A stretch of DNA of 64,000 nucleotides from Nodosilinea sp. PGN35 (GTDB lineage: Bacteria > Cyanobacteriota > Cyanobacteriia > Phormidesmidales > Phormidesmidaceae). Both the position numbers and the translations under genes were made by a program. Below are positions 45,232 to 64,000 of this stretch, piece after piece. Position 1 is the stretch's first letter; each line of letters begins with the position of its first letter. The stretch covers positions 1 to 64,000 of the forward strand of contig NZ_JAQKQJ010000002.1 in assembly GCF_029109325.1 (NCBI RefSeq). The letters are read 5' to 3'. The notes under the pieces were generated by a model. The model made no database searches, was not told the origin of the DNA, and saw nothing but the letters and a program-made list of their open reading frames with translations.

Positions 45232-45261
45232 AGCACCCTAATTCTTAGCGTTGGCGCTGCC

Positions 45262-46593: not shown

Positions 46594-46921
46594 GGTTACC
46601 TCGTGGAGGATGGTGGAAGGACTGTTGGCTACTCAGTGCTTAGGACGATAGGGAACCCATAGGGGCAGCGTAGCCCCCCAGAGCCCATCTCCCCTAAGCA
46701 CACCCCCCGTAAACACACCATACTGGCCAGGCTTGTGATCAGCAATGCTGAAAATTGTCCTGGGCCAGGGCAGTCTTAAAACGGCGGCGTTAAAATTAAA
46801 GCGTTAGGGCCTGTTTCACCGATTTTGCCCGATTTTGACAGCTGTAGACGCCGCGATCGCCCAGGGCATTTTGCGGCAGGGCTGCGCCGGCGGCCCCGGC
46901 ACTGACTACTGAGGATAATGT
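46594..46921. other. Divergent spacer before the large gene run
   Basis: No gene. It holds a small hairpin GGGGCAGCGTAGCCCC near 46662, an AT-rich patch (AAAATTAAAG) around 46795, and GAGGATA at 46911-46917 as ribosome binding site of the TerB gene. Promoters for both directions are expected here but are not clear. Confidence 0.4.
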
Positions 46922-47605
46922 ATGGCTATCGTCACCGAGTCTCTCTATACCCAGGAGCAAATTAAGGTCTGGCTCCGGGGGCTGCTTACTCTGGCCTGGG
47001 CCGACGGCGCTTTTGACGAAGACGAAAAAGCGCTGATCACCGCCATCACCGAAACCGAACTGGCCCCAGAGCTAGACTTCGAGCACTTTGAACCCGTCAC
47101 CGCCGCCGAGGTGGCGAGGGTGTTGGGTTCTGACCCCGCTATGGCGGAAAACTTTCTGCGGATGGCGGTGATGGTGGCCCTGGCCGACGGGGTGTATTCC
47201 GTCGAAGAAGACGCTCAGATTCAGGCGCTGTGCCAGGCGCTCAACCTGCAAGATACCGTACTTAACTCGGTGCGATCGACCCTCTACAGCCTCAAGCCGG
47301 AGAATGCCGAGGTTGCCGCCGAGCTGCGCCCCGCCACCCACGGCAAGATCGACCCCCTCAAGCCCGCCCGCGAGTGGCTTGACCAACTGGAGGTGCACGA
47401 TCCGCGCCTGGCGAGGTTTGTGTGCAAGCTGATTCCATCCCAGTGCCCCTTCGAGCGGGACGTGGTGCTGTTTAAAAAGAAACTGATGCACATTCCGCCT
47501 ATGTGCAAAATCAATCCGCTCTACGACCAGCTGGTGGGGCTGCGGTTTCGCGCCCTTTCCTATCTGGCCGACGACTGCGGCGAAGATGTGACGGCGCTGC
47601 TGTAG
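46922..47605 (+). CDS. TerB-like domain fused to Mo-dependent nitrogenase C-terminal-like domain
   Basis: The protein has 227 aa. Residues 10-125 show two TerB-type halves with acidic DGxxDxxE-like loops (AWADGAFDEDEKALI; ALADGVYSVEEDAQIQ). Residues about 140-227 (KPAREWLDQLEVHDPRLARFVCKLIPSQCPFERDVV) match the domain named after its place behind Mo-nitrogenase genes (PF06967). The latter occurs in many non-diazotrophic cyanobacteria, and no nif gene is seen here, so the protein is no evidence for nitrogen fixation. It opens the plus-strand run of large unknown genes. Confidence 0.8.
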   Translation: MAIVTESLYTQEQIKVWLRGLLTLAWADGAFDEDEKALITAITETELAPELDFEHFEPVTAAEVARVLGSDPAMAENFLRMAVMVALADGVYSVEEDAQIQALCQALNLQDTVLNSVRSTLYSLKPENAEVAAELRPATHGKIDPLKPAREWLDQLEVHDPRLARFVCKLIPSQCPFERDVVLFKKKLMHIPPMCKINPLYDQLVGLRFRALSYLADDCGEDVTALL

Positions 47606-47803: not shown

Positions 47804-50362
47804 ATGGCAACCTTCCAGAAATCAGCGGCGGCTGTGTCAGCCCAAGCGCCGTTACTGGCGTTGAACAACCAATCGGTTGTGCGAGCCGTTCAGGCCCCGG
47901 CGTTTACCCGCGTCAGTGCCGAAGTTCGACCCAGTTCTGGCGTGCAGCAGGCGGTGTCGGTGTCGCCTCCCCAGGCGGTGGCTAAGCCGGTCGTGCGCGA
48001 TCACCGGCAGGCGGCCCAGCCCGCCGTCAGGGTTGCCGACAGCCGGGTGGCGGCGGCGGTGGTGCGCGACCATCGCTCGGCGGTGCCGATTAAAAACAAC
48101 ACCAACGTCAACATCGACCACCTGCGGCTGATCAATATGGATCTGGCCCACCTGGTGGGGAAGGTGCAGGTGCCCACCGAAGGGGTGCCGCGCCAGGAGA
48201 TGACGGTGCCGATCAGCCCCACCCCGGAGGTCACTGACGAGGTGGTGTTTGAGCAGGCCACCGGCCCCGAGCGCTACTTTGTGCCCCGCTACAGCCTGGC
48301 GATGGCCAATGGGCAGTACCAGATTGCCCTGGAGCCTGCGGGCGCGGACTGGAGCCTGGTGGTCTACCTCGATCGCTTTGCCGCTCCAGCCATTCAGTCA
48401 CAGGTGACGGGTGGGCAGGCGCTCACCCACGAGATTGCGGTGGTGCTGACCCACAACCTGCTGGCGGGTACTGCCGTGGTGGGCCGCAAAGAGCTGGTGT
48501 TTCAGGACGTGGCGGCGGCGGGCGATCGCCTGCGGGCGGAGCTGCGGGTGGCGGGTCTGGCCGAGCGCGACCAGATCTACCACGCCCTCACCGACTCGAT
48601 CTACGGGGCAGCGCTGACGGTGCGGCGCATTTTTACCGTGGGCGTGCCGGTACCCCAGGCCCAGGTGGTGGCCTCGGGCAAAAATACCATTCGCGGCACC
48701 TGGACCTTTGACTTTGACACCGGGGTCGAGGGCGGCGACGGCGATGTCTGGTGGCAGCAAAAAACCGCCACCGAGCGCGAAATGACGCCCCGTGGTCAGG
48801 CGGCCATTGTCTCGTTGGGCATGGTCGATTTTGATCAGGTGTCGCTGTCGCAGCTGCGGGGCCTGAACTACAGCACGGCTTCTATACCAGGCAATGTGAA
48901 TGGCCAAAACCTGCTGCTGCCGGGGCAGGTGTTTGCCGTACGCACCAGCCAGGGCCACTACGCCAAGGTCAAGGTGCTGACCTACGACTACAACCTCACC
49001 GTGCAGTGGGTGACCTACAGCACCGATGCCCAGTCGGCCCAGAGCCGCTTTCGGGAGGCAGTTCGGACGCTGGACTGCGCGATCGCCCCCAGCCCTTTTC
49101 TGTTTCCGCCGACCCTGCACGGCTACGTGTACAGCCAGATCAAGGCGATTTCGGGCCGCAGTTCTGACCTCAAGCGGATCACGGTCAACTCCCACAACTA
49201 CTACCAGGACCGCACCAAGCCCAACCGCTTCTTTACCCTGCCCGACAGTTTTAAGCTGGCCCGCCGCCCCGAGATTCCCCACCGCCCGCTGGCCTCAGTG
49301 CAGGTGATACCCACCGCCGGGGAAGCCCTCGACGGAGCCCAGGTGACCCTGCGCTACGCCGCCCTGCCCTACCTGAACCCGGCCCGCCTGCGGGCGGCCA
49401 CCGCCGAACTGCTCACCCACGTGCCCACCGACCTGCGCGCCCAGGGCCTGGAGTTTGACCGCCTGGAGGTAGACCCCAGCAAAACTCAGCTACGGGTGGC
49501 CAAGCCGGGCAGCCGCATCGATGGCCCCTACCAGCTCCGCCCTGGGGCCGTGGTGGATGTCAAGGACGGCATTGCCGACATTCTCACCCTCAGCCTGGAT
49601 GAATTTCAGCCCATTTTCGACGGCATGTTCAGCGATTCTACGATCATGTTTGGCCAGGTGACGGTGGATCTGGGCGACCAGGGCTGGCGGGAGTCGTCGA
49701 TTCCCTTTGTGGCGCGCATGGATGATCTGATCGGCGAGGTGTTTAACTACGATCGCCGCCCCGAGGTAATTGGCGGCCAGGTGAGCCTCAGTTTGCAAAA
49801 CTGCATCGAAAGCCCGGTGCGGGTCACGGCTCTGGGGGCGGATCTGAAACAGGGCGATCGCCCGATCGCCGTCGCCAGCCTGACCCCTGGGGTGGCCCTG
49901 CCGGTGCTGCTTAATCCTGGCGAATCGCTGGCGCTCACCCTCACCCCCGCCGAGGCCCTGACCGACGGTCAGCCCGTGGAGGTGGCCTTTGACCTCAGCC
50001 GGGTTGCCGTAGTGCCCGACCGCGAGGCGATCGTGCGGGCGATCTTCGACTCCACCGTCTCGGTACAGCCCAGCCGCCACATTACGGTGGAAACCTTTGC
50101 GGAGCTGTTTGAGCAGGCCAACCCGATTCTGGCGATCGTGGTCGATTTTGAGCACGGCACCTCGGCCCGGCTCACCCCCAGTGAGCTAAAAACCGTGGTT
50201 CAGGTCAGCCTACCCATGAGCGCCATTCTCAACAGCATGCTGCGGCAGCCGCTGCCCACCGACTACCGCTACCGGGTGACGCTGATTCACCGCAACGGCA
50301 GCCAGACCCGCTCCGACTGGCAGACCGACACCGCGCCCTACCTGATTCCCCCGCTGCCCTGA
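47804..50362 (+). CDS. Large unknown protein, first of the six-gene run (852 aa)
   Basis: The first 100 residues are Ala/Val/Gln-rich and look disordered, with VVRDHR repeated at 63-68 and 86-91. A beta-rich body begins around RYFVPRYSLAMANGQYQIAL (about 158). The C-terminus (YRYRVTLIHRNGSQTRSDW...LIPPLP) closely resembles the ends of the other large proteins downstream, such as YQYRITYRYTNGLSRTTDW in the fifth gene. No signal peptide is seen and no known domain is recognised. 216 bp separate it from the next gene. Confidence 0.7.
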   Translation: MATFQKSAAAVSAQAPLLALNNQSVVRAVQAPAFTRVSAEVRPSSGVQQAVSVSPPQAVAKPVVRDHRQAAQPAVRVADSRVAAAVVRDHRSAVPIKNNTNVNIDHLRLINMDLAHLVGKVQVPTEGVPRQEMTVPISPTPEVTDEVVFEQATGPERYFVPRYSLAMANGQYQIALEPAGADWSLVVYLDRFAAPAIQSQVTGGQALTHEIAVVLTHNLLAGTAVVGRKELVFQDVAAAGDRLRAELRVAGLAERDQIYHALTDSIYGAALTVRRIFTVGVPVPQAQVVASGKNTIRGTWTFDFDTGVEGGDGDVWWQQKTATEREMTPRGQAAIVSLGMVDFDQVSLSQLRGLNYSTASIPGNVNGQNLLLPGQVFAVRTSQGHYAKVKVLTYDYNLTVQWVTYSTDAQSAQSRFREAVRTLDCAIAPSPFLFPPTLHGYVYSQIKAISGRSSDLKRITVNSHNYYQDRTKPNRFFTLPDSFKLARRPEIPHRPLASVQVIPTAGEALDGAQVTLRYAALPYLNPARLRAATAELLTHVPTDLRAQGLEFDRLEVDPSKTQLRVAKPGSRIDGPYQLRPGAVVDVKDGIADILTLSLDEFQPIFDGMFSDSTIMFGQVTVDLGDQGWRESSIPFVARMDDLIGEVFNYDRRPEVIGGQVSLSLQNCIESPVRVTALGADLKQGDRPIAVASLTPGVALPVLLNPGESLALTLTPAEALTDGQPVEVAFDLSRVAVVPDREAIVRAIFDSTVSVQPSRHITVETFAELFEQANPILAIVVDFEHGTSARLTPSELKTVVQVSLPMSAILNSMLRQPLPTDYRYRVTLIHRNGSQTRSDWQTDTAPYLIPPLP

Positions 50363-50389
50363 TGGTCTGCCAAGCCGAAAAGTTGACGG

Positions 50390-50560
50390 TTGACGGTTGA
50401 CGGTTCACGGTTGACGGTTCGCGGTTCACGGCTTGTCTCAAACCTTGTGCGCGGTTCACGGTTCACGGTTCACGGTTCACGGCTTGTCTCAAACCCTACA
50501 CCCCGAACCCTACACCCTACACCCCGAACCCTACACCCCGAACCCTACACCTTCTGCTCC
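50390..50560. repeat. Simple tandem repeats between the first and second large genes
   Basis: Heptamers GGTTCAC/GGTTGAC repeated about ten times with two copies of GGCTTGTCTCAAACC, followed by repeats of CCCGAACCCTACAC. A frame runs through them but has no biological look. Confidence 0.85.
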
Positions 50561-50578
50561 CCTATAGTCCCCGTTCCC

Positions 50579-52339
50579 ATGACACTCTTTGGCCTACCCG
50601 ATTTTCAGCAGCCGCTGCCCCTGGGGGAGGGAGTGATCTATGCCCCCTACGGCAACCTCGGCCCCTACACCCTGCTGCCCCGGCGACTTGCGGTTGCCCA
50701 AAGGGCCGATGGCGGGGTTGACTTTGCCCTGTCGCTGCTGCGGGGCGCAAACCCTGATCTACCCCCCAAACCCCACGGCATCATTGACTTTCGCCTGCAC
50801 TTGCACTACCCCCTGGCAGAGGCTCTGGCGGCCCTGCGGGAGCAGCATCCCCATGCCGTTCTGCAACCGGCCAGCGTTGACAGCGGCTGGCTGCGCCTGT
50901 ACCCCACCAGCCACGACATTCCCGATGACCTGCGGCAGCCAGTTTCCCTGGTGTGGACTGCGTTTGACGTTCCCCGCTACACCCTCAAGCTCTCGGATAC
51001 CACCACGCTGAAGCTGAAGGGGGCGTTGCAGGCCCAGGCGCTGCTGCTGATGGCCCAGGCCGAGCTGCTGATCGCGGGGGTAGCCCCCCGGCTGCCGCTG
51101 CGGGTGCGTTTTGACCCGGCAAAGCTGGTGGCTGATCTGAGCGATCGCGGCGATCAGCCGAGTGCGATCGCCTACGCAGCCATCCACCAGTATTTTGCTC
51201 AGCCTCGCGAAACCCTGCCCCTGGAGCTAGACGGCGAGGTCTCAGATCCTGAAGTCTTTGCAGCTACTATGACCGACTGGATCTGTACCCGCCTGGGGAC
51301 ATGGGTACCCGCCCCCACCGAAACCGGGTCGGGCTACGTGGCTCTTCAGCCCGTGGGCGAGGGCCGCTTTGAGTGGGATCTGTCGCAGCCCCAGCGAGTG
51401 CTGCGCCCCTGGGCGATCGCCCTCAACCCCCTGGAGGCCGCTCAGGAAATCGTGCAGGCCCAGGGCCTTGAGGCCGTGTTTAAAGAGGTGACGGTACCCG
51501 CGCTGCCGACTGGGGCGCATGCGGTGGAGGTGCGGGCCAACCTGCCGACGGTGCGACCAGGGGTGCTGGCGGCGGGGGTGACCCTCACAGCGCCCCCGGC
51601 CCTGCCCCACCGGCTGCAAACCCAGACCGCCACCGCTGAGTTTAAGCCCCCTGGCGATCGCGCCCAGGTAGTGCTGCGGCTCTCCCCGGCGGAGGCGCTG
51701 GCCTACACCTACTCGACCTACATGGTGCTGCGCCAGGGCAACCGGGTGCAGCAGCTGCGCGGCCCCGAAACGCCCGCCACCGCCTCCCTGCTGCACCTGA
51801 CCCCCGACCAGTTTCCGGTGGTGTTTGTGCCAGTGGAGGCGGAGGGGGATCTGCTGGCGATCGCCACCCTTTCGGGCACCTGTCGCTGGCGACTGGGCCA
51901 GGAGGCCCACCAGCAATCGTTTTCGCTCACGGCCAACCAGCCCAGCCTGGCCCTGGCTCTACCCCAGGAGGCCGAGGCGATCGCCGTGGAGTTTACCGCC
52001 ACGTCCCTCAGTGACGCGCATACCCTCTCGCTGCCGCCGTCCGAGGCCCCGCACTACCGCCTGGGGCTACACTCCTTCGCAGAATACGGCCCCCACCAGG
52101 TGGATATCACCTGCGCTCTGCCCGACCCGCTGGTGGCCATCGAGCTGCGTCCCGAAGCGTCAGAAGCCCAGGCCAGCCTGGTCGTATTTACCCCCGACGA
52201 CCCCCGCAAAACCTGGCGCTACTGGGCGCGATCGCCCTTTCAGCCCGGCTACCGCTACCGCCGCCGGGGGGCTACCGCCTGGTCGCCTGTGCAGTCGCCC
52301 TTTCAGCCTCTCACCCTACACCCCGGAGACCTGCCATGA
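50579..52339 (+). CDS. Large unknown protein, second of the run (586 aa)
   Basis: From ATG 50579 (MTLFGLPDFQQPLPLGEGVIY). The N-terminal module seen in the later genes is recognisable: YTLLPRRLAVA at 30-40, VDFALSLLRG at 47-56, and GIIDFRLHLHYPL at 67-79. The C-terminus (WRYWARSPFQPGYRYRRRGATAW) resembles the beta repeat of the other proteins. The 63-codon upstream extension is translated simple repeat and is rejected. The stop overlaps the next start by ATGA. Confidence 0.75.
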   Translation: MTLFGLPDFQQPLPLGEGVIYAPYGNLGPYTLLPRRLAVAQRADGGVDFALSLLRGANPDLPPKPHGIIDFRLHLHYPLAEALAALREQHPHAVLQPASVDSGWLRLYPTSHDIPDDLRQPVSLVWTAFDVPRYTLKLSDTTTLKLKGALQAQALLLMAQAELLIAGVAPRLPLRVRFDPAKLVADLSDRGDQPSAIAYAAIHQYFAQPRETLPLELDGEVSDPEVFAATMTDWICTRLGTWVPAPTETGSGYVALQPVGEGRFEWDLSQPQRVLRPWAIALNPLEAAQEIVQAQGLEAVFKEVTVPALPTGAHAVEVRANLPTVRPGVLAAGVTLTAPPALPHRLQTQTATAEFKPPGDRAQVVLRLSPAEALAYTYSTYMVLRQGNRVQQLRGPETPATASLLHLTPDQFPVVFVPVEAEGDLLAIATLSGTCRWRLGQEAHQQSFSLTANQPSLALALPQEAEAIAVEFTATSLSDAHTLSLPPSEAPHYRLGLHSFAEYGPHQVDITCALPDPLVAIELRPEASEAQASLVVFTPDDPRKTWRYWARSPFQPGYRYRRRGATAWSPVQSPFQPLTLHPGDLP

Positions 52340-53184
52340 ATTTGCCCCCCAGCCTGTCGTCTGCCCTGTACTGCTTTCGCAGTCCTCAAGATGCCAACCA
52401 GTTCTACTACCTGCCCGGCGACCCCGTCCCCCAGCGCGACAGCCGGGGTAACCCAGCGGTGTCGCTGATGGCCACCAGCGACTTTGCCATGCTGCAAGTT
52501 AGCAGCCAGTGGCGGGTCACTGACAGCCAGCTTGCAGCCCTCAAAGCCGACTTGCAGTCCCAAACCGCCATTGCCGCCGATGCCCTGCGGCTAGAATCCG
52601 CCCCAGTCCAAATTGAAGCCGTGGAACTGCGGCTCACAACCAGCACCGGGGAGCCCGAGGTGCTGGCCACCAGCAAATCCTCGGGCTATGCCCCCTTTAG
52701 CGCGGTGTTTAGCGTGACGCTAAATGCCGAGCAAAAAGCCCAGGCGATCGCGGCCCTGGGCGGTCGTCAAGATCTGCTGCTGGTCAGCTATCTCGCCAGC
52801 GTAGATCTGCCTCTGGCGGGCCAGGTCGAAATTGAGGGCGAAGTCGCCACCGATCTGCGGGAGCTGGGGCCACAGCCCACAGCAGCAGCGGTTCGAGAAC
52901 GGGTGGAGAATGCGATCGCCCGGGGGCGACTGACCCTCACCGAAACCTTCCCCGACCACACCCCTGCCGACCTCAAACAGCGCACCTTAGATCAGGCCAA
53001 AGATCGCGCCATTGAGCTGCTTCTGCAAATGGCTGAAACGCCAAAAACAAGCCGCGAATTGCATCTCTATACCAAAGCCTACCTAGAAGAAACCACCGCC
53101 GTTGCCCTGGAGCGCACCGCCGACATCAGCACCTGGTTTCCCAGCGGCAAGGGGCTGGAGCACCTGCAACTGATCGGCAGTTAA
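52336..53184 (+). CDS. Third of the run: N-terminal module plus helical tail (282 aa)
   Basis: The start overlaps the previous stop as ATGA, so translation is coupled. The module reads CFRSPQDANQFYYLPGDP at 13-30, AVSLM at 41-45 and AMLQVSSQWRVT at 51-62. The second half is an acidic, helical region (VRERVENAIARGRLTLTETF; LDQAKDRAIELLLQMAE). It lacks the C-terminal beta repeat of its neighbours and is the shortest member; it could be an adaptor or chaperone-like partner. Unknown family. Confidence 0.75.
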   Translation: MNLPPSLSSALYCFRSPQDANQFYYLPGDPVPQRDSRGNPAVSLMATSDFAMLQVSSQWRVTDSQLAALKADLQSQTAIAADALRLESAPVQIEAVELRLTTSTGEPEVLATSKSSGYAPFSAVFSVTLNAEQKAQAIAALGGRQDLLLVSYLASVDLPLAGQVEIEGEVATDLRELGPQPTAAAVRERVENAIARGRLTLTETFPDHTPADLKQRTLDQAKDRAIELLLQMAETPKTSRELHLYTKAYLEETTAVALERTADISTWFPSGKGLEHLQLIGS

Positions 53185-53230
53185 GTGTTCCTAATTGACC
53201 GACAGAACCTGCGAAGCGCCCGCTTGTTTT

Positions 53231-53407
53231 TGGCTGTAGCCAGTTTGTTTAAGATCTTGTCCCTAGAAACGTTCACACACTAGAAACGTTCACACGTTCA
53301 CACGTTCAAAAATTCATGCCTTCAAACATTTACACCCTCAAGCATTCACACGTTTCTAAGATTTCCGACTGTCCTAATAGAAAACCAAATCAACTGCAAC
53401 CATAGTA
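53231..53407. repeat. MITE-like palindromic repeat, copy 3, enlarged
   Basis: Ends match the 103-bp copies (GGCTGTAGCCAGTTTG ... CTGCAACCATAGTA). The centre is longer because ACGTTCACAC-type units have multiplied. The 53185-53587 spacer otherwise holds only the approach to the next gene, with AAGGGAG at 53573-53579 as ribosome binding site. Confidence 0.65.
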
Positions 53408-53587
53408 CCCAGCCGGGTGATGGCAACCAGATAGTTATTCCTGGACAATAGAACCTAGAAAGAGTTCAGAACTATCCCGATTCTCTGCCCATTTACAACC
53501 GATCAAGTTCCATTCCTCTGAACTCAAAAAACTTCAACTGCCCCACCCTTCAAGACCCACTAAAATTGCCCCCAAGGGAGACAAGTC

Positions 53588-55816
53588 ATGCTGCAAATTG
53601 ATAAAGTGCAAGTCATTGATGGCGTTACTGTCTACGGTGACGACAGCAACATCGCCACCTTCTACATTGTGCCCGACGTGCCCCGGTTTCGCATCAATGA
53701 CAACCTGCTGCCGTCCTTTAGCTTCTTCAAATATCGCATGCCGATCGATCGCGTCGATGGCTCCAAGGGCGGCGGTTTTTTAGTCTGCGACGTAGAGCTT
53801 TCGCTGCCCCCAGAAAAGCAGGAAGCGGTGAAGCAAAAGCTCCAGGCCCAGATCAATCAGCGGTACGCCAACTCCAGCGTTGAGCCCCCCGAAGTCAAGA
53901 TCGGCAACATCACCTACACCCGAGGCACGGCCAAACTCAACATCGAAAACGTCAGCGAAAAATTTATTGAAAGCGTTTTCAACCCCGGCAAGCCCTCCCT
54001 CTACGGGCGCAACCTGACCCCATTTACCGTTGAACTCACCGACATTGGCGCGACCTTCTTTGAGCAGGCCCTGCAAAATAAGGGCGGATTTGTGCAGGTC
54101 AGCTACGACCTCTACTGCCCGGTCAAGCTCCCCCCCATCGAGGCCCGCATCTGGTTTAACGCCAGCAAGTTCCAGAGCTTTGTCCAAGACTTTACCAAGC
54201 GCGAAACCTCCTCCGGGGCCTTTCGCACCATCTGGCGCTGGCTGTTTGGCGGCACCAGCAAAAACCGCACCGAAATTAACGAAACCACCCGTGAATATGC
54301 CAGCGAGCACCAGTGGGGCGGCGTTGAGATCGACTTCAAAGACTGGACGGCCAGCGATGACGTCAAGCAGCGGGTGCGCGACTGGGCGATGAACAGCCTG
54401 GCCGAAGCGGTCAAAGCCGCCAACGAAGACAAGCTCGATCCCTTCACCGAAGAGCAGAAGAAAATCCCCGACAACGTCACCGATTTTCATCGCCGCATGA
54501 GCCAGTTTAAGTTCACCAACGTCAACCAGCGCTACCGCGAAAGTCAGGCCGTCGAGTGGAATTTGGCCCCCCAGGGTATGCTGGAGCCGATTGTCAATTT
54601 GAAGGACAAAGACGGCAATTTTCTCAAGTGGGAAGACTTTGCCATGACGGTAGATTTGGACGACCCCTTCTTCAAGACGCTCGAAGTGCCGATTCGGGTC
54701 AATGCCGACTTCAAAGAGCTGCCGATTCACAGCGTCGATGTGCACTGCGAATACAAGCAGGGCAACACCAACCGCATTCAGTCGTTTAGCTTTACCAACC
54801 CCGACAATTTAGAGAAGTTCAAGTCGTTCATCGAAAATAACTACTGGAACTACAAGTACTGGTACCAGGTCAACTACAAAGGCCGCAGCCAAACCTTTAA
54901 GTCGAAGGAAATTGAAACCAAAGACAAGTTCCTCACCATCAACGTCGATGACACCGGCATTTTGGCGGTCGATGTCATGCCCGGCGACCTGAACTGGAAC
55001 CAGGTCAGCCGCGCCCAGGTGAAGCTCACCTACGGGGCTACCGCCAACCGGGTGCCCATCGAGCGGCAGTACGTGCTGGATGCGAACCAGACCAAGCACT
55101 CCCTGCGGGAGGTGGTGTTTGCCCCAGTCTCCGAGCCGTACGAATACAAAGTGAAGTACTTTATGGCCGACGGCAAAGAGTACGAGGTCAGTGAGCACAA
55201 GTCGCGATCGCCCCACCTGTTTATCAACGATCCCTTCAACGCCAACCGCACGGTGAGTTTGCGGGCGGCGGGTGACCTCGACAGCGACATTCAAACCATC
55301 TATGTGGACGTGCGCTACGAGGATGCCGAAAACCAGTACAGCCAGTCCACCACCGTGGCCCTGAGCCGCTCCAACCCGTTCTTTGACTGGACGTTCCCGG
55401 TGATTGACGACCTGCGGGGCACCATCACCTACAAGGGCACCATTCAGCTCAAAAACAACCAGGTCGAAACCATCCCCGAAACCACCACCACCGATACCAC
55501 CATCATGGTGGGCCGCAAGATTGAGGAGATGATGACCGTGCGGGTGCTGCCCAACCTGCTGAACTTCAGCCAGATCGACCTGGCGATCGTGTCGCTCTCC
55601 TACGTGGATGCGGCCAACAACATCAACGCCCGCACCGAGCTGATCTTCGACGGGCCGTCCCAGAGCCCGCAAACCTGGGTGCTGCCGCTGAAAGATCGCA
55701 ACGCCAACCAGTACCAGTGGGGAGCGGTGTTCTACATGAAGGACGGCAGCGAGCGCACCATCGCCCCGCAGATGACGCCAAACCTGACCATTCCGCTGCG
55801 GGTGCCCGCCAGCTAG
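53588..55816 (+). CDS. Fourth of the run: modular beta-repeat protein (742 aa)
   Basis: N-terminal module at 1-75: VYGDDSNIATFYIVPD (15-30), FSFFKYR (44-50), GGGFLVCDVELSL (61-73). A middle part follows to about 320. Then comes a hinge motif shared with the fifth and sixth proteins: APQGML (about 326) and VDLDDPFFKTLEV (about 355). The rest is four or so beta repeats of about 90 residues with the pattern VxLxYxDxxN...W.LPL...YxYxxxYxxKDGS. No signal peptide or known domain. It could be a surface or particle component. Confidence 0.78.
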   Translation: MLQIDKVQVIDGVTVYGDDSNIATFYIVPDVPRFRINDNLLPSFSFFKYRMPIDRVDGSKGGGFLVCDVELSLPPEKQEAVKQKLQAQINQRYANSSVEPPEVKIGNITYTRGTAKLNIENVSEKFIESVFNPGKPSLYGRNLTPFTVELTDIGATFFEQALQNKGGFVQVSYDLYCPVKLPPIEARIWFNASKFQSFVQDFTKRETSSGAFRTIWRWLFGGTSKNRTEINETTREYASEHQWGGVEIDFKDWTASDDVKQRVRDWAMNSLAEAVKAANEDKLDPFTEEQKKIPDNVTDFHRRMSQFKFTNVNQRYRESQAVEWNLAPQGMLEPIVNLKDKDGNFLKWEDFAMTVDLDDPFFKTLEVPIRVNADFKELPIHSVDVHCEYKQGNTNRIQSFSFTNPDNLEKFKSFIENNYWNYKYWYQVNYKGRSQTFKSKEIETKDKFLTINVDDTGILAVDVMPGDLNWNQVSRAQVKLTYGATANRVPIERQYVLDANQTKHSLREVVFAPVSEPYEYKVKYFMADGKEYEVSEHKSRSPHLFINDPFNANRTVSLRAAGDLDSDIQTIYVDVRYEDAENQYSQSTTVALSRSNPFFDWTFPVIDDLRGTITYKGTIQLKNNQVETIPETTTTDTTIMVGRKIEEMMTVRVLPNLLNFSQIDLAIVSLSYVDAANNINARTELIFDGPSQSPQTWVLPLKDRNANQYQWGAVFYMKDGSERTIAPQMTPNLTIPLRVPAS

Positions 55817-55845
55817 TTTCGCCTGCTGTCTGGCCGCGTCCTGGG

Positions 55846-55872
55846 TAGGGGCATTGCAGTGCAATGCCCCTA
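55846..55872. repeat. 27-bp palindrome (GGGGCATTGC family), copy 2
   Basis: TAGGGGCATTGC / GCAATGCCCCTA, 29 bp after the stop of the fourth large gene; the same as 26156-26182 apart from one central base. Confidence 0.8.
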
Positions 55873-56094
55873 CGGGGATCCCATTCAGCTTTGTAGGTTG
55901 GGTTGAACGACGTGACAACCCAACTCCGCCGGAGATCGGTTGGGTTTCGCCGAGCCTCAACACCAACCTACAAATTCCACCCAATCTCCAAAACTACATT
56001 CCTCCATCGCCACTTTAATCGGGCTGTTTGGTCTGCGACCCGCTTCACTGGTCTGCCCCACGGCCCCCGTTTCGGTTAGCCCAAGGAGCTAGTC

Positions 56095-58368
56095 ATGCTA
56101 TACCTCAACCCGCCCTTCCACATCATTGAAGGCGTCTCGATTTTTCCTGACCACGCCAACCCGTTGCAGCACTACTACCTGCCGCTGATGCCCAAGCTGA
56201 CTACGTTGCAGGGCACCGACGGCAAGCCCATTCCCCAAATTCAGCTGATCAAATACCGGGGCGACGCGGGCAACGGCGGCTTTCTCAACTTTGATGTCAA
56301 CGTGGGGGTCGAAGAACCCACCCTGCAAAAGATTCGCCGGGAGCTGCGGCAAAAGGCTGGCCTGGCAGCGGAGCCCTGGCTGGCCCCGGTGCCCCTGGTG
56401 GATGGCTCAGTGCGCCTGCTGCTGCTGGGCAAGCAGACGGGCGACACGGCCCCTACCCCCGGCGGCACCCCCGGCAGCACCCCCCAGTTCGTGCTGAAGA
56501 TTGACCAGGCCGCCAAGCCCTCCCTCTACGGCGCTAACCAGGCGGCGTTTTCGGTCGCCCTCGACCAGTACGGGGTGACGGTGATGGAGCAGGCCCTCCA
56601 GGGGGAAATGTCGCCAATTGGGGTGGTGTATTCCCTCGACTATTTGGCCCTGCGCCCGGCCTACTCGGTGCGGCTGAATGTGGACTGGGAGCGGGTGCAA
56701 ACCCACCTGAATGAGCGCTTTGCTGTCGACGCGGTGTTTGTCTCAACGGAGATTGACAAGACCGTAGACGAGCTGATTGAGAATCGCACCATTGTGCTGG
56801 AGGCCGACACCTTTATTCCCGAAGGGGAGGAGGAAAGCGCCGTGCTGGGCCGCCGCGACCAGGCGGTGAACGAGGTGCGCGAGATGATCACCGCCGCCTT
56901 TTTTGAACCCACCATCGACCCGGTCAAGGCAGCGCAGGACGGCTGGGATCGGGCGGCCTACCTGGCCGATCGCGTATCCAGGCTGGCGGTGACGGGCGGC
57001 TGGTCGTCGATCGGGTCATTCACCTACAAAAAGACCGACTACACCCGCATCGATCGCAAAAAGCTGAACGTCACCATGAACGAGCGCACCACGGTGAAGC
57101 GCAGCATCTACCCCCAGGGGCACCTGAGTGGGCTGTGCCGCCCAATTATGGAGCAGGGCCTCGACCTCAGCCGGTTCATCATTCCGGTCGATCTGAATGA
57201 CCCCTGGTTTGAGCGGCGCAGGCTGGCGGTGCTGTCGCGGGCCAACTTTGAGGAAGACGCGATCGGCTCGATCAATGTGCAGCTGAGCTACGGCAGCACC
57301 CCCAAAAACGTGCTGTTGGAGAGTTCGGCAGCGCGATCGGAGGTGCAGTGGGCCAGCCTGGTGCGCCAGCAGGCCATGGAGCGGGCGGTTACCGCCCAGT
57401 ACACGGTGAACTTTAAGGGCAGCAATAGTACTGAACGCCCGATCAAAGTGCAGTCGGCCCCCCAGGTGATCCACACCGACAACCTGGAGATCAACCCCCG
57501 CGAACTCTATTCCCTGGTGCATGTGCCGATCGTGGCGCTGAGCTTTCCGTGGGAGCGCTACCCCCATATTGAGGTGCACCTGAAGTACACCGATCGCGCC
57601 AGCAATATCCAGATGAACGACGTGCTGGTGCTGGACAAAGAGCACAGCGATCGCACCTGGAAGTACTTTGTGCTCAACCCCGAGCACACCGCCTTTCAGT
57701 ACAAGCTGATCTACCGGGCCGCCAACCACCGCGACATCGAGACCCCCTTTGTGGAAACCAGCGAGGAGCGCATCACCATTCGCGACCCCCGCCCCAACAA
57801 GCGCACCCTGGCCGTGGTGCCCAGCTTCGACTGGAGCGTGGTCGATCGCGCCTTTGTAGATCTCACCTACCGCGACCCGGCCCACCGCATCCACGTGGAA
57901 GAGTCCTTTGAGTTTAGCCCCGAAAACCCAGGCTCCAAAACCTTCGCCGCCGACCTGGAGAACCCCGAACTGCGGCAGATCATCTACCGGGTCACGGTGC
58001 TGTTTAAGGGTGGCCACATGGTGGAGATTCCGCCCTCGGTCACCAGCGATCGCCGCATTATTCTGCGTAGCGACATGCGCGGCCACCGCATTGTCACCGT
58101 TCGTCCCCAGATGACCCCGTTCCTCACCCGAAGGCTGGCCGAACTCCAGGTGGAGCTGCGCTACACCGACGACGAGGCGGGCCTCAGCTTCGCCGACCTG
58201 CTCACCTTCCGCGCCGCAGACGAAAGCGGCAGCTTTGAGTTCGATTACGTCGATGAGCAGCGGACGGGCTACCAGTACCGGATCACCTACCGCTACACCA
58301 ACGGCCTCAGCCGCACCACGGACTGGGCCACCGCGGCTACGGATCTGCTGCAGGTGCCGGTGGCGTAG
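56095..58368 (+). CDS. Fifth of the run: modular beta-repeat protein (757 aa)
   Basis: A paralogue of the previous gene with the same order: IFPDHANPLQHYYLP (16-30), QLIKYR (50-55), GGFLNFDVNVGV (61-72), the hinge YPQGHLSGL (about 338) and VDLNDPWFERRRLAV (about 364), then beta repeats ending YQYRITYRYTNGLSRTTDW. A proline/glycine stretch (PTPGGTPGSTPQ) interrupts the first domain. AAGGAG precedes the ATG. Sequence has diverged strongly from the fourth protein, so duplication is old. Confidence 0.78.
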   Translation: MLYLNPPFHIIEGVSIFPDHANPLQHYYLPLMPKLTTLQGTDGKPIPQIQLIKYRGDAGNGGFLNFDVNVGVEEPTLQKIRRELRQKAGLAAEPWLAPVPLVDGSVRLLLLGKQTGDTAPTPGGTPGSTPQFVLKIDQAAKPSLYGANQAAFSVALDQYGVTVMEQALQGEMSPIGVVYSLDYLALRPAYSVRLNVDWERVQTHLNERFAVDAVFVSTEIDKTVDELIENRTIVLEADTFIPEGEEESAVLGRRDQAVNEVREMITAAFFEPTIDPVKAAQDGWDRAAYLADRVSRLAVTGGWSSIGSFTYKKTDYTRIDRKKLNVTMNERTTVKRSIYPQGHLSGLCRPIMEQGLDLSRFIIPVDLNDPWFERRRLAVLSRANFEEDAIGSINVQLSYGSTPKNVLLESSAARSEVQWASLVRQQAMERAVTAQYTVNFKGSNSTERPIKVQSAPQVIHTDNLEINPRELYSLVHVPIVALSFPWERYPHIEVHLKYTDRASNIQMNDVLVLDKEHSDRTWKYFVLNPEHTAFQYKLIYRAANHRDIETPFVETSEERITIRDPRPNKRTLAVVPSFDWSVVDRAFVDLTYRDPAHRIHVEESFEFSPENPGSKTFAADLENPELRQIIYRVTVLFKGGHMVEIPPSVTSDRRIILRSDMRGHRIVTVRPQMTPFLTRRLAELQVELRYTDDEAGLSFADLLTFRAADESGSFEFDYVDEQRTGYQYRITYRYTNGLSRTTDWATAATDLLQVPVA

Positions 58369-58407
58369 GCGGCGGTAGCGGGTGGGGTGGGCGATCGCCT
58401 CGCAAAT

Positions 58408-58424
58408 GGTGGGCAGTGCCCACC
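58408..58424. repeat. Solo REP palindrome
   Basis: GGTGGGCAGTGCCCACC followed by CTAC, identical to the right end of RAYT copy 3. Confidence 0.8.
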
Positions 58425-58467
58425 CTACCTTGATTATCCGTGGCGTCTGCTCTCGGCCTTAGTGAGT

Positions 58468-58537
58468 GGTGCATTGCGGCCCAAGAGCCGAGTCTGTGAG
58501 GTTTTGCCCAAGATTTGGGCCGCGAATGCACCCTACG
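58468..58537. repeat. Inverted repeat (GGTGCATT family), copy 3
   Basis: GGTGCATTGCGGCCCAA and TTGGGCCGCGAATGCACCC face each other about 30 nt apart. The simple-sequence tract CCCATCACCCCAT follows before the next gene. Confidence 0.7.
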
Positions 58538-58659
58538 TCACCCCATCCCCGACCAGCAGGGCGATCGCCCCTACCCATCCACCCATCCCCGGCCATCAGG
58601 GCGAACGCCGTTCGCCCCTACCCATCACCCCATCACCCCATCACCCCCTCGGAGGCCCA

Positions 58660-61600
58660 ATGCTTACCCTCGGAAGTCGCACTCTCAACGTAGACGGCAT
58701 CACGGTCTACGCCGACCATGCCGATCCCAACCAGTTCTGGTATCTGCCCGGCCCGGTGAAAATTGCCCGCCAGCCCAATCGCCAGGCCGCTTTTACGCTG
58801 ATTTCCTACAAACCGGCGGCGGTGGCGGCCGGGGTGAAGGGCGGCGGTTTTTTAATGTTTGGCGTCGATCTGCGCCTGTCGCCGGAGCAGGAGCGGCGGA
58901 TTTTGTCGCGGCTGTCGGCGGTGGCCCCCGGCACCCCGCGCCTGGCTGCCGTACCCTTTGACGAGGGCACGGTGGAGTGCATGGCGCTGAATGTGCAGGG
59001 CTCGGGCGGCACGGTCGCCAGCCCCGCTGGCCCCGGCAGCTTTAACGCCGTGGAGAAAATTTTGGGGGCCACGGTGCCCTCCCTGGATGTCAACAACTCG
59101 GCCCACTTTGGCCTCACCCTCAGCCAGGAGGGGGCGATCATTCTCAAGCAGGCGTTTCAGCAGGGTACGACCCCGGTGGGGGTGCTCTACAACCTCAAGT
59201 ACACCGCCCTGCGCCCCGCCCTGGATGTGAAAATTACCGCCGACCTGAAGCGGGTGTACGACCACTTCAGCGCCAGCCTCAGCGGCCAGTATTATTTCGT
59301 CAAAGTCGGTCTGGAAGCCGGGTTTGAGAAGCTGGTGCAGGACGGCGCGATCAAGATCGAGGTGATTAGCTTTACCGACGCCAGCGATCGCGCCGAAAAA
59401 GAAAAGTGGGCGCTCGACTTCTTTAAAGACAACCTCTTGCAGAGCTGGTTTACCCCCTCGCTCACCCCCGGCGAGTTTGCCGGCGGCCGCATGACCCTGC
59501 CCGCCGAACCCACCCCTGGATCTGGATCTGGCGGTTCCGGCTCGGGCGGTTCCAGTTCGGGATCGGGCGGTTCTGGCGGTTCTACGGGGTCAGGGTCTTC
59601 GAGTTCCGGTAGCTCCTCCGGGTCGGGCTCGTCCTCAGGCTCCTCTGGCTCTAGCGGTTCTGGCGGATCATCAGGGAGTTCTGGAAGTGGCTCGTCCAGC
59701 ACAGGAAACACTAACGCAGCGGCAACTCGTTCCGAAGGGACGCGCTCCAACGCGGATACGACCGCTAACCAGAACGCTCCAGCCCACCAGCCCGCCCAGA
59801 TGACCGTGGTTTCCATCCCCGACCCGCTGCCGGAGGGCTACGGGCTGCTGCACACCCCGGCCACCTCAGGCACCACCGAAACCCTGACCGTGCAGGGGGC
59901 CACCAGCCAGACCGTGGTCAAGGTGAATGGGGCAGTGCGATCGCTCAACGCCAGCCACCAGCTCACGGTAGATGTGGTTCCCGGCACCCCTACCAACATT
60001 GTGGTGGAGTATCCCCCCACCACCGTCACCGAGACCTTTCACCTCTTCTTTGACTACGACAAACCGACGGCGAGCGGCTGGTCAACCACCTCGGCCCGCT
60101 ACGTAAGCTATCTCAACGGCAGCCCCAATCCTGCGGATGCCCGATTTAGCAGCGCCGACACCACCCGGCCCACCCTCACCAGCACCCCAGGCCGCCAGAT
60201 CACCGGCAACGCCCAGCAGCTGCGCGACTGGGTAATGAACCGACTGACGGTACCCAAGACAGTCACCATCGAAGGGCACGCCAGCTTTGAGGGCAACGCC
60301 GGCAAAGAGGCCCACAACCGATCGCTGTCCCAGCGGCGACGCCAGGTGGCCGCAGGCATTGTCGCGCCCCTGGTCACCAGTGTCAACGGCAGTGCTGCCG
60401 GGCAGGGCCATACCCGAGCAGCGGCAGCAGGGCGCAGCGGCGATGAGCGCGATCGCGTCGCCGAAATTACCGGCCAAGTGAGCGATCGCCCCCGCGCCGA
60501 AATCCGCGCCACCCTCACCCGCGCCGCCGCTCCCGTCACACCGACAACGCCGACCACACCTACCACTCCCACGACGCCCACCACACCGACAACGCCCACC
60601 ACACCCCCTACCCCCACACCCCCTACCCCACCCGCAGGCGAACCCGCTATCACCTTCAAACTCAAATACCTGCGCCAGGAGGAGCAAAAGACCGTCACCT
60701 TCCACTACAACCGCACCGAAGCTGTGCAGCGCACCTACGCGCCCCAGGGTTTAATTGGGCTGCTGGTGGCCGACCTCAGCGACAGCGAAAAGCACTTTGT
60801 CGAAGTCGATCTCGACGATCCCTTCTTCCGGGTGTTGCAGGTGAGCGTCGATGCCCCCATCGACTTTCAGCGAATTGGGCTGACCTCGGCCCAGGTGTCC
60901 CTCGACTACGGCGACCCGACCCAGCCCCGCAGTCACAAGCACGCCGACTTTATCTTTGAGCCCGGTGCCGCCCCCCGGCAGCTGTTTGAAACTTTCCTCA
61001 ACCAGCGCTTTGACACCGCCTACACCTACGGCGTGCAGTATCACTTCGACCCCGGCACCGACTGGGATGGCCACGCCTACACCTACAGTCTGCCGCCCCA
61101 GCCCACCGAAGACCGCACCCTGCAAATCAACCCCTTTGAGCACCTGGGCTTTTTGGAGTTGCGCGCCTTCGCCAACCGGGTCGATTGGGGTGTGATTCAG
61201 GCCATTGACCTGCACCTGAGCTACGACAGCCCCACCGGCTGGCAGCGGCAGAAAACCCTGACCTTAACTGTCGCCTCCGGTGAGCAGTTCTGGCGACTGC
61301 GGCTGGAGCGGCCCGAGGCTCGCACCTACCGCTACCGCTGCGTCTACCACCTCAAAGATGGCTCCACCCAGCAGTCCGACCCGGTGGAGAGTCAGGCCAC
61401 GGCCATCCCGATCAACGACCCGTTTGCGGGGGCGCTGGAGCTGGAGTTTGTGCCGCTGTTTGCCCCCGGTGCGGTGCGCCAGGTGTACATCGACATTCGC
61501 TATACCGACGATGCCAACCGCTACTTCCGCGACGAGCGGCTGGTGCTGACGGGCGATGCGATCGCCCCCCTGCCCCTGAGGATTTCGCTCAAAAATCTGG

Positions 61601-61719
61601 CCCACCGCGCCTACGACTACCGCCTGACCATCGTCGGCACCGACAACCGCCTGCGGCGCACCCCCTTCATCACCACGGAGGAAACCATCATCGGCGTATC
61701 TGAAACCGGGGACGTTTAG
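58660..61719 (+). CDS. Sixth of the run: modular protein with inserted OmpA-like domain (1019 aa)
   Basis: ATG 58660 with GGAGG upstream. The N-terminal module is YADHADPNQFWYLP (17-30), FTLISYK (45-51), GGGFLMFGVDLRL (61-73). Residues about 287-350 are a Ser/Gly linker. At about 457-570 an OmpA-C-like domain appears: TFHLFFDYD, then TIEGHASFEGN and NRSLSQRRRQVAAGI. A Thr-Thr-Pro linker (about 626-657) follows. The shared hinge resumes with APQGLIGLL (about 693) and VDLDDPFFRVLQV (about 715), then beta repeats. OmpA-C domains normally bind peptidoglycan. No signal peptide is present. Confidence 0.8.
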   Translation: MLTLGSRTLNVDGITVYADHADPNQFWYLPGPVKIARQPNRQAAFTLISYKPAAVAAGVKGGGFLMFGVDLRLSPEQERRILSRLSAVAPGTPRLAAVPFDEGTVECMALNVQGSGGTVASPAGPGSFNAVEKILGATVPSLDVNNSAHFGLTLSQEGAIILKQAFQQGTTPVGVLYNLKYTALRPALDVKITADLKRVYDHFSASLSGQYYFVKVGLEAGFEKLVQDGAIKIEVISFTDASDRAEKEKWALDFFKDNLLQSWFTPSLTPGEFAGGRMTLPAEPTPGSGSGGSGSGGSSSGSGGSGGSTGSGSSSSGSSSGSGSSSGSSGSSGSGGSSGSSGSGSSSTGNTNAAATRSEGTRSNADTTANQNAPAHQPAQMTVVSIPDPLPEGYGLLHTPATSGTTETLTVQGATSQTVVKVNGAVRSLNASHQLTVDVVPGTPTNIVVEYPPTTVTETFHLFFDYDKPTASGWSTTSARYVSYLNGSPNPADARFSSADTTRPTLTSTPGRQITGNAQQLRDWVMNRLTVPKTVTIEGHASFEGNAGKEAHNRSLSQRRRQVAAGIVAPLVTSVNGSAAGQGHTRAAAAGRSGDERDRVAEITGQVSDRPRAEIRATLTRAAAPVTPTTPTTPTTPTTPTTPTTPTTPPTPTPPTPPAGEPAITFKLKYLRQEEQKTVTFHYNRTEAVQRTYAPQGLIGLLVADLSDSEKHFVEVDLDDPFFRVLQVSVDAPIDFQRIGLTSAQVSLDYGDPTQPRSHKHADFIFEPGAAPRQLFETFLNQRFDTAYTYGVQYHFDPGTDWDGHAYTYSLPPQPTEDRTLQINPFEHLGFLELRAFANRVDWGVIQAIDLHLSYDSPTGWQRQKTLTLTVASGEQFWRLRLERPEARTYRYRCVYHLKDGSTQQSDPVESQATAIPINDPFAGALELEFVPLFAPGAVRQVYIDIRYTDDANRYFRDERLVLTGDAIAPLPLRISLKNLAHRAYDYRLTIVGTDNRLRRTPFITTEETIIGVSETGDV

Positions 61720-61782: not shown

Positions 61783-61981
61783 ATGCTTCTGTGGCCCCGG
61801 TGGGCTTTGATGCAGGAAACCTTGAGGCATAGCCATCGCCAGATCGGTTGGGACATTCTGCCCAATGCCTGGGAGCGAGGCTATATGCCAGCGCGCTGCC
61901 CCAGGTCTGAGCTACAGCAGCGGTCGATGTCCTGAGCGCAATGGCCATCGCTAGTTAAGCGTGGGGCTCTGGCTGAGCAAT

Positions 61982-62006
61982 AAAAAGCGGGAACCAGAGT
62001 TCCCGC
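61982..62006 (-). terminator. Terminator of the CP12 gene
   Basis: GCGGGAA (61987-61993) pairs with TTCCCGC (62000-62006); on the minus strand TTTTT follows (61986-61982). The rest of 61720-62072 holds no recognisable gene. Confidence 0.75.
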
Positions 62007-62072
62007 CAGAGGCTGTTTGAGGTTTGAGGCTGTTTGAGGGTTTGGGTAAAGCGCCTTGAACCGAAACCGTCC

Positions 62073-62330
62073 CTAGTCTTCGTAGATTCGGCACTCCGGA
62101 GCGTCGGGGTGAGCATTGCAGTAGCGCTCGAAGGCGGTGGTCTGAGCCGCCTGACGGCGGTGGGCTGTCGAGAGTTCTTCGACGGTTTCCCAGGCGATCG
62201 CAACGTCTGTACTGTTGATGTCGTATAGCGCGCTGAGGCGGCGAGCATGTTCGAACGCAACCTGTAGCCGCGCCGCCAGCGTGGGCTGAATTGAGGGAGC
62301 TGAGGTAGGCAGGGTGGTGGTAAGACCCAT
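62073..62330 (-). CDS. cp12: CP12 family protein lacking the N-terminal cysteine pair
   Basis: The protein has 85 aa. The C-terminus FERYCNAHPDAPECRIYED carries the classical CP12 disulfide pair (Cys71, Cys80) that inserts into GAPDH. The core IAWETVEEL matches the conserved AWDAVEEL. The N-terminal cysteine pair, expected around 36-43 (ALYDINSTDV), is absent, with Tyr and Val in those places. CP12 bridges GAPDH and phosphoribulokinase in the dark; a form with only the C-terminal pair may bind GAPDH alone or work without redox control at the PRK side. The first 18 residues are an unusual Thr/Pro/Ser extension. Confidence 0.85.
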   Translation of the reverse strand: MGLTTTLPTSAPSIQPTLAARLQVAFEHARRLSALYDINSTDVAIAWETVEELSTAHRRQAAQTTAFERYCNAHPDAPECRIYED

Positions 62331-62475
62331 AGTGCTGATCTCCAGTGCTGTAGGTGAACTGTTTTCAATTTAGCGATAATCTGAGCAAATAGCTATAGGC
62401 TTCATATATAAACTATTTTTATCATTGATTAGGTTTTCTTACCTGCTGCCGTTCCGCCAGGGGCTAATAGAAACG

Positions 62476-62508
62476 GCCAGAGCCGATCTGCACAAGATCG
62501 GCTCTGGC
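62476..62508 (-). terminator. Terminator of the flavodiiron gene
   Basis: GCCAGAGCCGATC (62476-62488) and GATCGGCTCTGGC (62496-62508) give a perfect 13-bp stem with a 7-nt loop. Read on the minus strand it is followed by CGTTTCTATT. Confidence 0.8.
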
Positions 62509-62557
62509 GCGACTGCATCGTGGTTGTGGCCTGGGAAAATCCACTTCGCTGATGGAG

Positions 62558-64000
62558 TCAGTACTGATAGCCCGACTTACGGTGGGTGATAGCCGTCGTG
62601 CCGTCGGCGGCAAGACGTTTGCCCCGGTGCACCGTGGCGTAGATCAGCAGGTGGTCACCGACGCCGGTCTGCTCTTTCACGGTGCATTCCACGCCGGCCA
62701 GCGCGTCGGTGAGCATAGCGCAACCGTTGCTGGCCGGGGTAAAGGGCAAATGCTCAAACGCCGTGGTGGAGCCATGCTGGGCCGAGAAGTGGCGGCGCAC
62801 GGATCGCCCTTCCTTGAGAATGTTCAGCACAAAGTGGGTTCCGGGGCAGAGCTGACTGGCCGCGGCCGCCTCCCTGGGCAGGGCCAGCATCAGGCCGGGG
62901 GGGCTAAAGCTGGCCTGGGCAACCCAGGCGGTCAGCAGCCCGGTGTGAACGCCGTCGACCTGGGTGGTGACGACGCAGAGGGAGCCAATCACCCGTCCCA
63001 GGGCCTGGGCGGTGCGATCGCTGTGGGCGGCGGCGATCGCCGCTCGTGCTCCCTGCTGCTTTTGGCGCTTGCGCAGGCGCTGGGCAAACCGGGTGGCCGC
63101 CGCGGCACAGGCCTCCAGCGCCGCCGCATCGGGGCTAAAGCGCACCTGCAAAGGCTCAAAGCCAAAGGCATAGTTGGCATCTTTGAGCTTGCGCTCCAGT
63201 TCGTCAATGGCTTCGCCGCTCCAGCCGTAGGAGCCAAATACCCCCACCAGCTTTGTTTTGGGCACACTGGCCAAAATCAGGCCCAGGGCCGTCTGAATCT
63301 GCACTGGGGCATGGCCGCCCAGGGTGGGAGAACCGATGATAAAGCCGTCGCACTGGCTGAGGGTGGCTACCAGATGGTTGGGGTCGGTCTGTTCACAGTT
63401 GATCGCCTCCACGGCAATCTGGGCGGCGCTGAGGGCTTGGGCGATCGCATCGGCCAGCCGGGCCGTGTTGCCGTAAGAGCAGCGCCACCCGCAGCGGCTG
63501 CTGGGCCTGCTGCTGGCACCACTGGCGATAGTCCTGCCGCAGTCGGCTGAGGCTGTAGCGCACCAGGGGACCGTGGCCAGGGGCCAGGGTTTTGAGGGGG
63601 AGCGGGTCGAGCAGATCCAGGGCCGTTTCCACCTGTTTGGCCTGGGGGCTGTGCAGGCAGTCGAAATAGTAGCGGCGATCGCCCTCCAGCTGCCGCCACT
63701 GCTCATCCCACAGGGCATCGTCGCAGCGGTGGGCACCAAACAGCTTGTCGCTGAAGAGAATCTGGCTGGCCATGTCGTAGGTGGTTAGCCCATCGGGCCA
63801 GCGCGGCGTAGGTACGCCCACAAACTCCAAAACGTGACCCTGGCCCAGATCCAGCGTGTCCCCAGAGCGTACCGGATAAAGGCGAAAGGCGCGATCGCCC
63901 AGGGCCAGTTTAAGCGTGTTGACCGCCGCCCTCGAACCCACAATTTGGGCCTGGGGAGCCAGCGTCAGCAGTCGGGTCAGCGTCGCCAGCCGATTGGCGT
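62558..64000 (-). pseudogene. Flavodiiron protein (diflavin type), frameshifted and cut by the window edge
   Basis: Two frames make up one protein. From the right edge to about 63480 the metallo-beta-lactamase half is read (TYDMASQILFSDKLFGAHRCD; KTLAPGHGPLVRYSLSRLRQDY). From about 63493 to 62558 another frame gives the flavodoxin part (YGNTARLADAIAQAL, FIIGSPTLGG) and the flavin-reductase part (VIGSLCVVTTQVDGVHTGLL). At the junction VALL is followed directly by YGNTA; the usual four residues between (of the YASA type) are missing. A deletion of about 11 bases explains this. Flv proteins reduce O2 to water behind photosystem I or II. As read, the gene cannot make the full enzyme. Confidence 0.75.

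Follow-up and report, generated by a model that had tools for sequence, protein, structure and literature searches.

What do six consecutive large genes, for which we could find no described family in explanation, make together, and how did they come to stand side by side in a cyanobacterial genome? The genes, designated here A to F, occupy positions 47804-61719 of the window, i.e. the whole 64,000-nucleotide stretch of Nodosilinea sp. PGN35 DNA that was analysed, which belongs to contig C2 of G000, a genome of 6.4 Mb whose relatives are cyanobacteria. A preliminary description of this DNA, made by a model from the letters alone, had singled out the run as a candidate system on the grounds of a module shared by five of the six genes, all lying on one strand. 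All six open reading frames were indeed found intact at the described positions and on the + strand. Judged from their profiles, the six are of common ancestry; they travel between distant hosts as a set, and their products probably build one protein machine that spreads between species.

Gene A (47804..50362, 852 residues) consists of a low-complexity head, an A-specific domain, the module at residues ~461-600, and Ig-like (immunoglobulin-like) C-terminal segments, with orthologues known from 22 loci. Gene B (50579..52339, 586 residues) is a shorter full-length paralogue with the module and an Ig-like region and is fused in several hosts (e.g. locus L029, 4798-7452) to gene C (52336..53184, 282 residues), which is the module alone and whose start overlaps the stop of B as ATGA. 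Truncation or frameshifting of C was considered and rejected, the gene ending in a conserved DxS(T)WF motif (alignment A7) and being followed by a 403-bp spacer without any continuing frame. Genes D (53588..55816, 742 residues) and E (56095..58368, 757 residues) are full-length paralogues of each other and of F, both carrying the module (residues 1-~372 in E) and tandem Ig/FN3-like domains (~374-757 in E). Gene F (58660..61719, 1019 residues) comprises the module, a Ser/Gly-rich linker, an OmpA-like insert, and Ig-like domains. The starts of B (50579) and F (58660) match those of their homologues; an alternative GTG start of F is possible at 58387, the homologues beginning at 58660.

Comparison of single sequences (phmmer/BLASTP) revealed a significant relationship among D, E, and F only (phmmer 1e-14 to 1e-52). 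Kinship was also sought by hidden Markov model (HMM-HMM) comparison of family profiles built from the orthologues, with reversed sequences and the unrelated downstream family A8 serving as controls. The full-length profiles of D-E, D-F, and E-F each matched at a probability of 100%, C matched D, E, and F at 98-99% (98.9% with C 5-230 aligned to E 8-266), and B matched D at 97.7% over 530 columns (B 17-565 vs. D 12-620), E at 97.2%, and F at 93.8%. The middle of A (~461-641) matched E (11-200) at 81.8% with full-length profiles and at 94.0% when the modules only were compared (A 440-650 vs. the N-terminal module of E). The controls reached at most 2.2% for reversed sequences and 1.2% for A8. 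Given these clean controls, the claim of a shared module is confirmed and widened: all six genes carry it, not five, and in four of them (B, D, E, and F) the relationship extends through most of the protein. Its assignment to the first 80 residues did not survive, being wrong for A, in which the module lies mid-protein, and too narrow for B, D, E, and F.

The motifs by which the module had been recognised fared unevenly. The aromatic-x-(L/V)-P element was located in all six proteins (A 476 FFTLP, B 30 YTLLP, C 23 FYYLP, D 25 FYIVP, E 26 HYYLP, and F 26 FWYLP), while the supposedly shared GGFL.F.V.L is clear in D, E, and F only and degenerate in B and C. The gene order described as tight is so only at the ATGA overlap of B and C, the remaining spacers measuring 216 bp (A-B), 403 bp (C-D), 278 bp (D-E), and 291 bp (E-F); in many relatives the equivalent genes almost abut, with spacers of 0-30 bp.

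No relative of E was found in 27 congeneric genomes, and among 386 sampled cyanobacteria searched with the module profile only the window's own genome matched. A wide scan of 84,980 species genomes, with a query profile from a three-row alignment, returned 39 loci, hosted by Methanosarcinales (a metagenome-assembled genome, MAG), Bacteroidota, Bacillota, Actinomycetota, Pseudomonadota, Nitrospirota, Myxococcota, Acidobacteriota/Aminicenantes, and one other cyanobacterium, CCP5; relatives are also borne by plasmids of Pararhizobium, Paracoccus, and Deinococcus. In the sampled Actinomycetota and Pseudomonadota the cluster occurs in about one further genome per 400, a rarity that explains why the system has gone unnoticed. 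With the genes of the relatives called by a simple script based on codon usage, the order A-B-C-D-E-F, or A-(BC fused)-D-E-F, was recovered in ~17 loci from six phyla, the full six-gene order being present, besides the window, in Methanosarcinales (MAG), Bacteroidota, Bacillota, Pseudomonadota, and Actinomycetota. The co-occurrence of neighbours proposed in the preliminary description is thus borne out, the six genes standing together in the same order in at least six phyla. A second variant, A-B-D-D-E-...-F, includes a subtilase or a related gene and is found in Hydrogenophaga, Pararhizobium, and Mariprofundaceae; in the tree, the copies of Nitrospirales, Nannocystaceae, and CCP5 belong to the same half as this variant. 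The cluster on the Paracoccus plasmid (L026, 10730-36579) is expanded, with six or more module paralogues; it is flanked by trypsin/EAD1/ATPase genes on one side and a tyrosinase on the other, and has a phospholipase-D-like gene inside.

Identity among orthologues across phyla is 20-57%, and since order and composition have survived transfer among six phyla at such divergence, the set must act as a unit. Between A, D, E, and F, the matrices of pairwise distances show correlations of r = 0.94-0.96 (Mantel test, none of 2000 permutations as high): the six genes travel together. In a joint tree, the D sequences make up a clade of their own (100/100), as do, within the main variant, those of E and those of F (100/100); the duplications are therefore older than the spread, one gene of each kind having been retained per host. 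In the tree of E (IQ-TREE), the window copy groups with those of the archaeal MAG, Paenibacillus, and Larkinella, its closest relative being the Methanosarcinales MAG orthologue at 57% identity. The copy of CCP5 lies in the opposite, fully supported half, so the two cyanobacterial copies were acquired separately. On this comparative evidence, A-F is a horizontally transferred gene system.

The site of arrival can be read from the flank. The TerB/Mo-nitrogenase-C-terminus gene (46922..47605, + strand) is host flank and the left border of the insertion. It was considered as a member of the system and rejected, being conserved in 28 of 28 genomes of the genus while E is absent from the 27 sisters, and being no neighbour of the cluster in other phyla. 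In the sister species G019 and G007 it is directly followed by a homologue of the gene at 67297 of G000, and in G000 the 19.7 kb between the two contain A-F together with a flavodiiron-protein cassette; the adjacency in the sisters identifies the A-F cluster as an insertion next to TerB. The slot beside TerB is rearranged among the sister species: the flavodiiron-protein pair (61958-64000, continuing to G000:C2:66880) lies on the downstream side of the cluster in the window genome and on the upstream side of TerB in G010; G019 and G007 do not have it next to TerB.

Scans of A-F with Pfam, NCBIfam, PHROGs, and PADLOC gave no match above cut-off, and an NCBIfam scan of the relatives' loci returned only caspase and weak DMATS matches. 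With E as query, neither a sequence search of the PDB nor searches of viral and phage records returned anything, and the matches of the E profile to PDB entries, FliJ (0.027) and an NDH subunit (0.18), were dismissed as chance-level. No paper on such a cluster was found in the openly licensed PubMed Central (PMC) literature, though an article naming the system elsewhere may have been missed. The suspicion that the system is undescribed therefore holds for these libraries, the PDB (by sequence and fold), and that literature. Neither of the two outcomes named beforehand as refuting the preliminary description, unrelated modules or a known system accounting for all members, was thus observed.

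Structure prediction with AlphaFold2 was applied to single chains of E, in full (predicted local distance difference test, pLDDT, 80.7; predicted template modelling score, pTM, 0.41) and as residues 1-376 from 68 sequences (pLDDT 82.9, pTM 0.71). The model displays an alpha/beta module, in which two long strands (175-197 and 323-338) surround a helical part, followed by a chain of beta-sandwiches. The module is thus predicted to be a unit of roughly 280-370 residues without matched fold, with tandem Ig/FN3-like domains behind it in most members. When the module alone was compared with 350,542 PDB chains by Foldseek, nothing was found at E<=0.001 (best 0.048, probability 0.14). The full E model matched tandem Ig/FN3/MG proteins in the PDB, led by the adhesin tetra-tandem repeat 6xi3 (E=1.8e-10) and including pilus and macroglobulin proteins, and viral Foldseek matches were limited to tail and surface proteins of Ig type. 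Signal peptides, transmembrane or hydrophobic segments, and sortase motifs are all absent from the six proteins of the window. Aminicenantes/Acidobacteria do encode a secreted branch of the family, made up of module proteins that bear clear signal peptides (L064, 11573-12598 and 15393-16025; L065, 10204-11226 and 11245-11823), so that the module can work outside the cytoplasm in other contexts.

The OmpA-like region of F, with its flanking Pro/Thr-rich linker (59977..60729, + strand, residues ~440-690), had been reported as the sole recognised domain of the run. Its match to PF00691 (E=0.0042, 17.8 bits) stays below the Pfam gathering cut-off of 27.2, so that formal membership of the OmpA family cannot be claimed; the insert as such is conserved, jackhmmer over the F homologues finding it in about half of them, including the archaeal MAG copy, and it also occurs in actinobacteria. 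GHAS replaces GHTD, with Ser at the Asp position in the window and in every F homologue having the motif. In OmpA the Asp of GHTD is the expected diaminopimelate/peptidoglycan-binding residue, and its uniform replacement makes ordinary peptidoglycan anchoring by F doubtful.

In other hosts the cluster keeps company with prenyltransferases and peptidases. A DMATS-like family of ~310 residues stands directly downstream of F in 15 loci (e.g. L028 15145-16155 and L030 15879-16796), and most type-I loci have it there; its profile matches the DMATS-type aromatic prenyltransferase 6zrx across its length (E=2.8e-6), and at the cluster the family spans bacteria and the archaeal MAG. In three loci the prenyltransferase is followed by a toroid-like protein of ~290 residues with a DADDTA motif (L028 16155-17021, L030 16796-17698, and L033 19441-20226), which has no Pfam or NCBIfam match and is reminiscent of class II terpene cyclases with their DxDD-like motif. 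Caspase-family proteases (PF00656, E ~1e-18 to 1e-23), one or two each, accompany the clusters of Paenibacillus, Larkinella, Fermentimonas, Hydrogenophaga, Micropruina, and Paractinoplanes. They lie next to F, keep the His (GHG) and Cys (D[SC]C[HF][SA]GG) motifs intact, and constitute a single subfamily confined to the cluster (E<=1e-105), the other caspases of those genomes scoring 1e-24 or weaker. Subtilases (PF00082) belong to the second variant, a trypsin-like (S1) protein lies inside the L037 cluster, the Paracoccus cluster is near trypsin, EAD1, and ATPase genes, and that of G032 adjoins a candidate caspase-NTPase gene, recognised by reading rather than by domain search. The window genome has no prenyltransferase of the DMATS-like family, for which the same search was positive in 13 of 22 other genomes; it has no caspase of the cluster-specific subfamily, and no protease stands beside the window cluster. 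A-F would accordingly be the core of the system and these genes its exchangeable accessories.

How, then, might the six proteins act together? We lean slightly towards a single hetero-oligomeric assembly made from six ancient paralogues. That co-directional paralogues build one structure, as the preliminary description had supposed, is what we infer from conserved order and co-inheritance. The shared module would be the joint through which the different subunits interlock, with C as the minimal joint piece, D, E, and F as the main bodies, F bearing in addition a ligand-binding (OmpA-like) domain, and A and B as end or adaptor pieces. The Ig-like arms may face outwards and bind targets, and the encoded peptidase, where there is one, may cut or process the assembly, or be controlled by or respond to it. 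Several points weigh against this picture: conserved order and co-inheritance also fit a pathway of separate proteins; A is tied to the others by moderate profile scores (82% full-length, 94% for the cut-out modules); both E models are single chains whose alignments were shallow (30 and 68 rows); peptidase and prenyltransferase are each missing from part of the hosts, and both from the window; and the archaeal copy is known from a metagenome bin, where mis-binning is possible. The bolder proposal of an undescribed class of mobile machine, a particle or fibre of six obligate paralogues of new fold, found in an archaeon as well as in bacteria and equipped in many hosts with a dedicated caspase for its processing or triggering, is put forward as tentative and may well not hold.

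The most informative alternative, and one partly compatible with an assembly, is a protease-gated conflict or cell-death system in which A-F would act as sensors or as a latent effector and be switched by the caspase, subtilase, or trypsin linked to them. The presence of three unrelated peptidase families in or beside the clusters (C14, S8, and, in L037 and L026, S1), the cluster-specific caspases, the EAD1 protein and ATPase beside the Paracoccus cluster, the candidate caspase-NTPase beside that of G032, and a patchy spread by transfer typical of such systems all speak for it. It is nonetheless rather unlikely, as a peptidase is lacking from the window copy and from many more (e.g. Lysobacter and Streptomyces), many other hosts have the prenyltransferase in its place, and A-F show no PADLOC or Pfam effector domain. 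The comparable peptidase/NTPase conflict systems of multicellular prokaryotes are peptidase-rich and built on an NTPase core with EAD/effector domains (eLife 9:e52696, PMC7159879). They resemble A-F in forming patchy, transferred clusters and in the caspase, trypsin, and EAD1 genes that stand beside some copies, whereas in the A-F core neither a STAND/AAA/GTPase component nor an EAD or known effector domain was found by Pfam, NCBIfam, or PADLOC, EAD1 and ATPase occurring only beside the Paracoccus cluster. Bacterial gasdermin operons, which encode pore formers activated by caspase-like or other proteases, resemble A-F in that one or more non-secreted proteins share a cluster with a protease of caspase-like or subtilase type. 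They differ in having one small gasdermin in place of six large Ig-armed paralogues; the protease of A-F is not universal, some relatives having a caspase or a subtilase and the window cluster none, and no gasdermin was matched in A-F by Pfam or PADLOC or stood among the PDB Foldseek matches listed for the module.

The tandem Ig/FN3-like domains, the Foldseek matches to adhesin, pilus, and macroglobulin proteins, the OmpA-like insert, and the secreted module proteins of Aminicenantes/Acidobacteria would also suit an adhesion or binding array at or beyond the cell surface, formed by six Ig-rich proteins, separately or as a fibre, and exported by some route. With no export or anchoring signal in the six window proteins, and with an OmpA-like domain that has Ser for Asp in every copy found and whose hosts include an archaeal bin and actinobacteria, such an array is improbable. 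Chaperone-usher and other Ig-subunit pili share with A-F the encoding of several Ig-like paralogues together in fixed order; A-F, for their part, have no signal peptide, usher, chaperone, or sortase (no hydrophobic segment, no Pfam match), and the N-terminal module is unrelated. Alpha-2-macroglobulin/complement-like proteins, the best PDB Foldseek group after the adhesin repeat, have tandem MG/Ig-like domains too, yet the TM-scores are ~0.1 or below, neither the.C.EQ thioester motif nor an A2M Pfam model is found in A-F, and the N-terminal module is another one. Extracellular contractile injection systems (eCIS) and other phage tail-like devices are similarly non-secreted multi-protein clusters transferred across phyla, archaea possibly included, but A-F match no sheath, tube, spike, baseplate, or ClpV-type protein in Pfam or PHROGs and E is unmatched in phage records. 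A biosynthetic or modification complex, in which A-F would scaffold the making of a prenylated small molecule or peptide by the enzyme downstream of F and, in three loci, also by the toroid protein with its DxDD-like motif, is highly improbable, because the core stands without either gene in the window, Larkinella, Fermentimonas, and Micropruina, no substrate-making genes are conserved, and A-F have no enzyme-like domains. Adjacent paralogues could lastly reflect simple tandem duplication, kept together by chance without any common machine; this was already disfavoured and is hardly credible for orthologues that group by gene and not by host and are all kept in the same order over six phyla at such low identity.

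Some features of the surroundings are recorded for completeness. Short tandem repeats occur in three spacers of the cluster, with units of 7, 14, and 21 bp between A and B (50382..50551), units of 8, 16, and 17 bp between C and D (53263..53354), and a third site at 58621-58647. They look like cyanobacterial short tandem repeats, expanded once the cluster had arrived. An Rfam search gave no match, and a scan for promoters and terminators found signals no more than in shuffled sequence. Beside TerB lie four small - strand genes (43464-46593) without usable Pfam match, 44194-46614 being conserved in the sister G019, and further upstream is a CHASE2-guanylate cyclase protein (40357-42300), an ordinary sensor cyclase.

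What lends the set A-F its interest is that four curated libraries hold no family model for any of its proteins and that its shared module has no significant match among the PDB chains compared. The dedicated caspase subfamily offers a concrete entry point, namely which protein is cut, and when. Should the six proteins turn out to be a protease-triggered machine, they would represent a new architecture for prokaryotic immunity, competition, or cell death.

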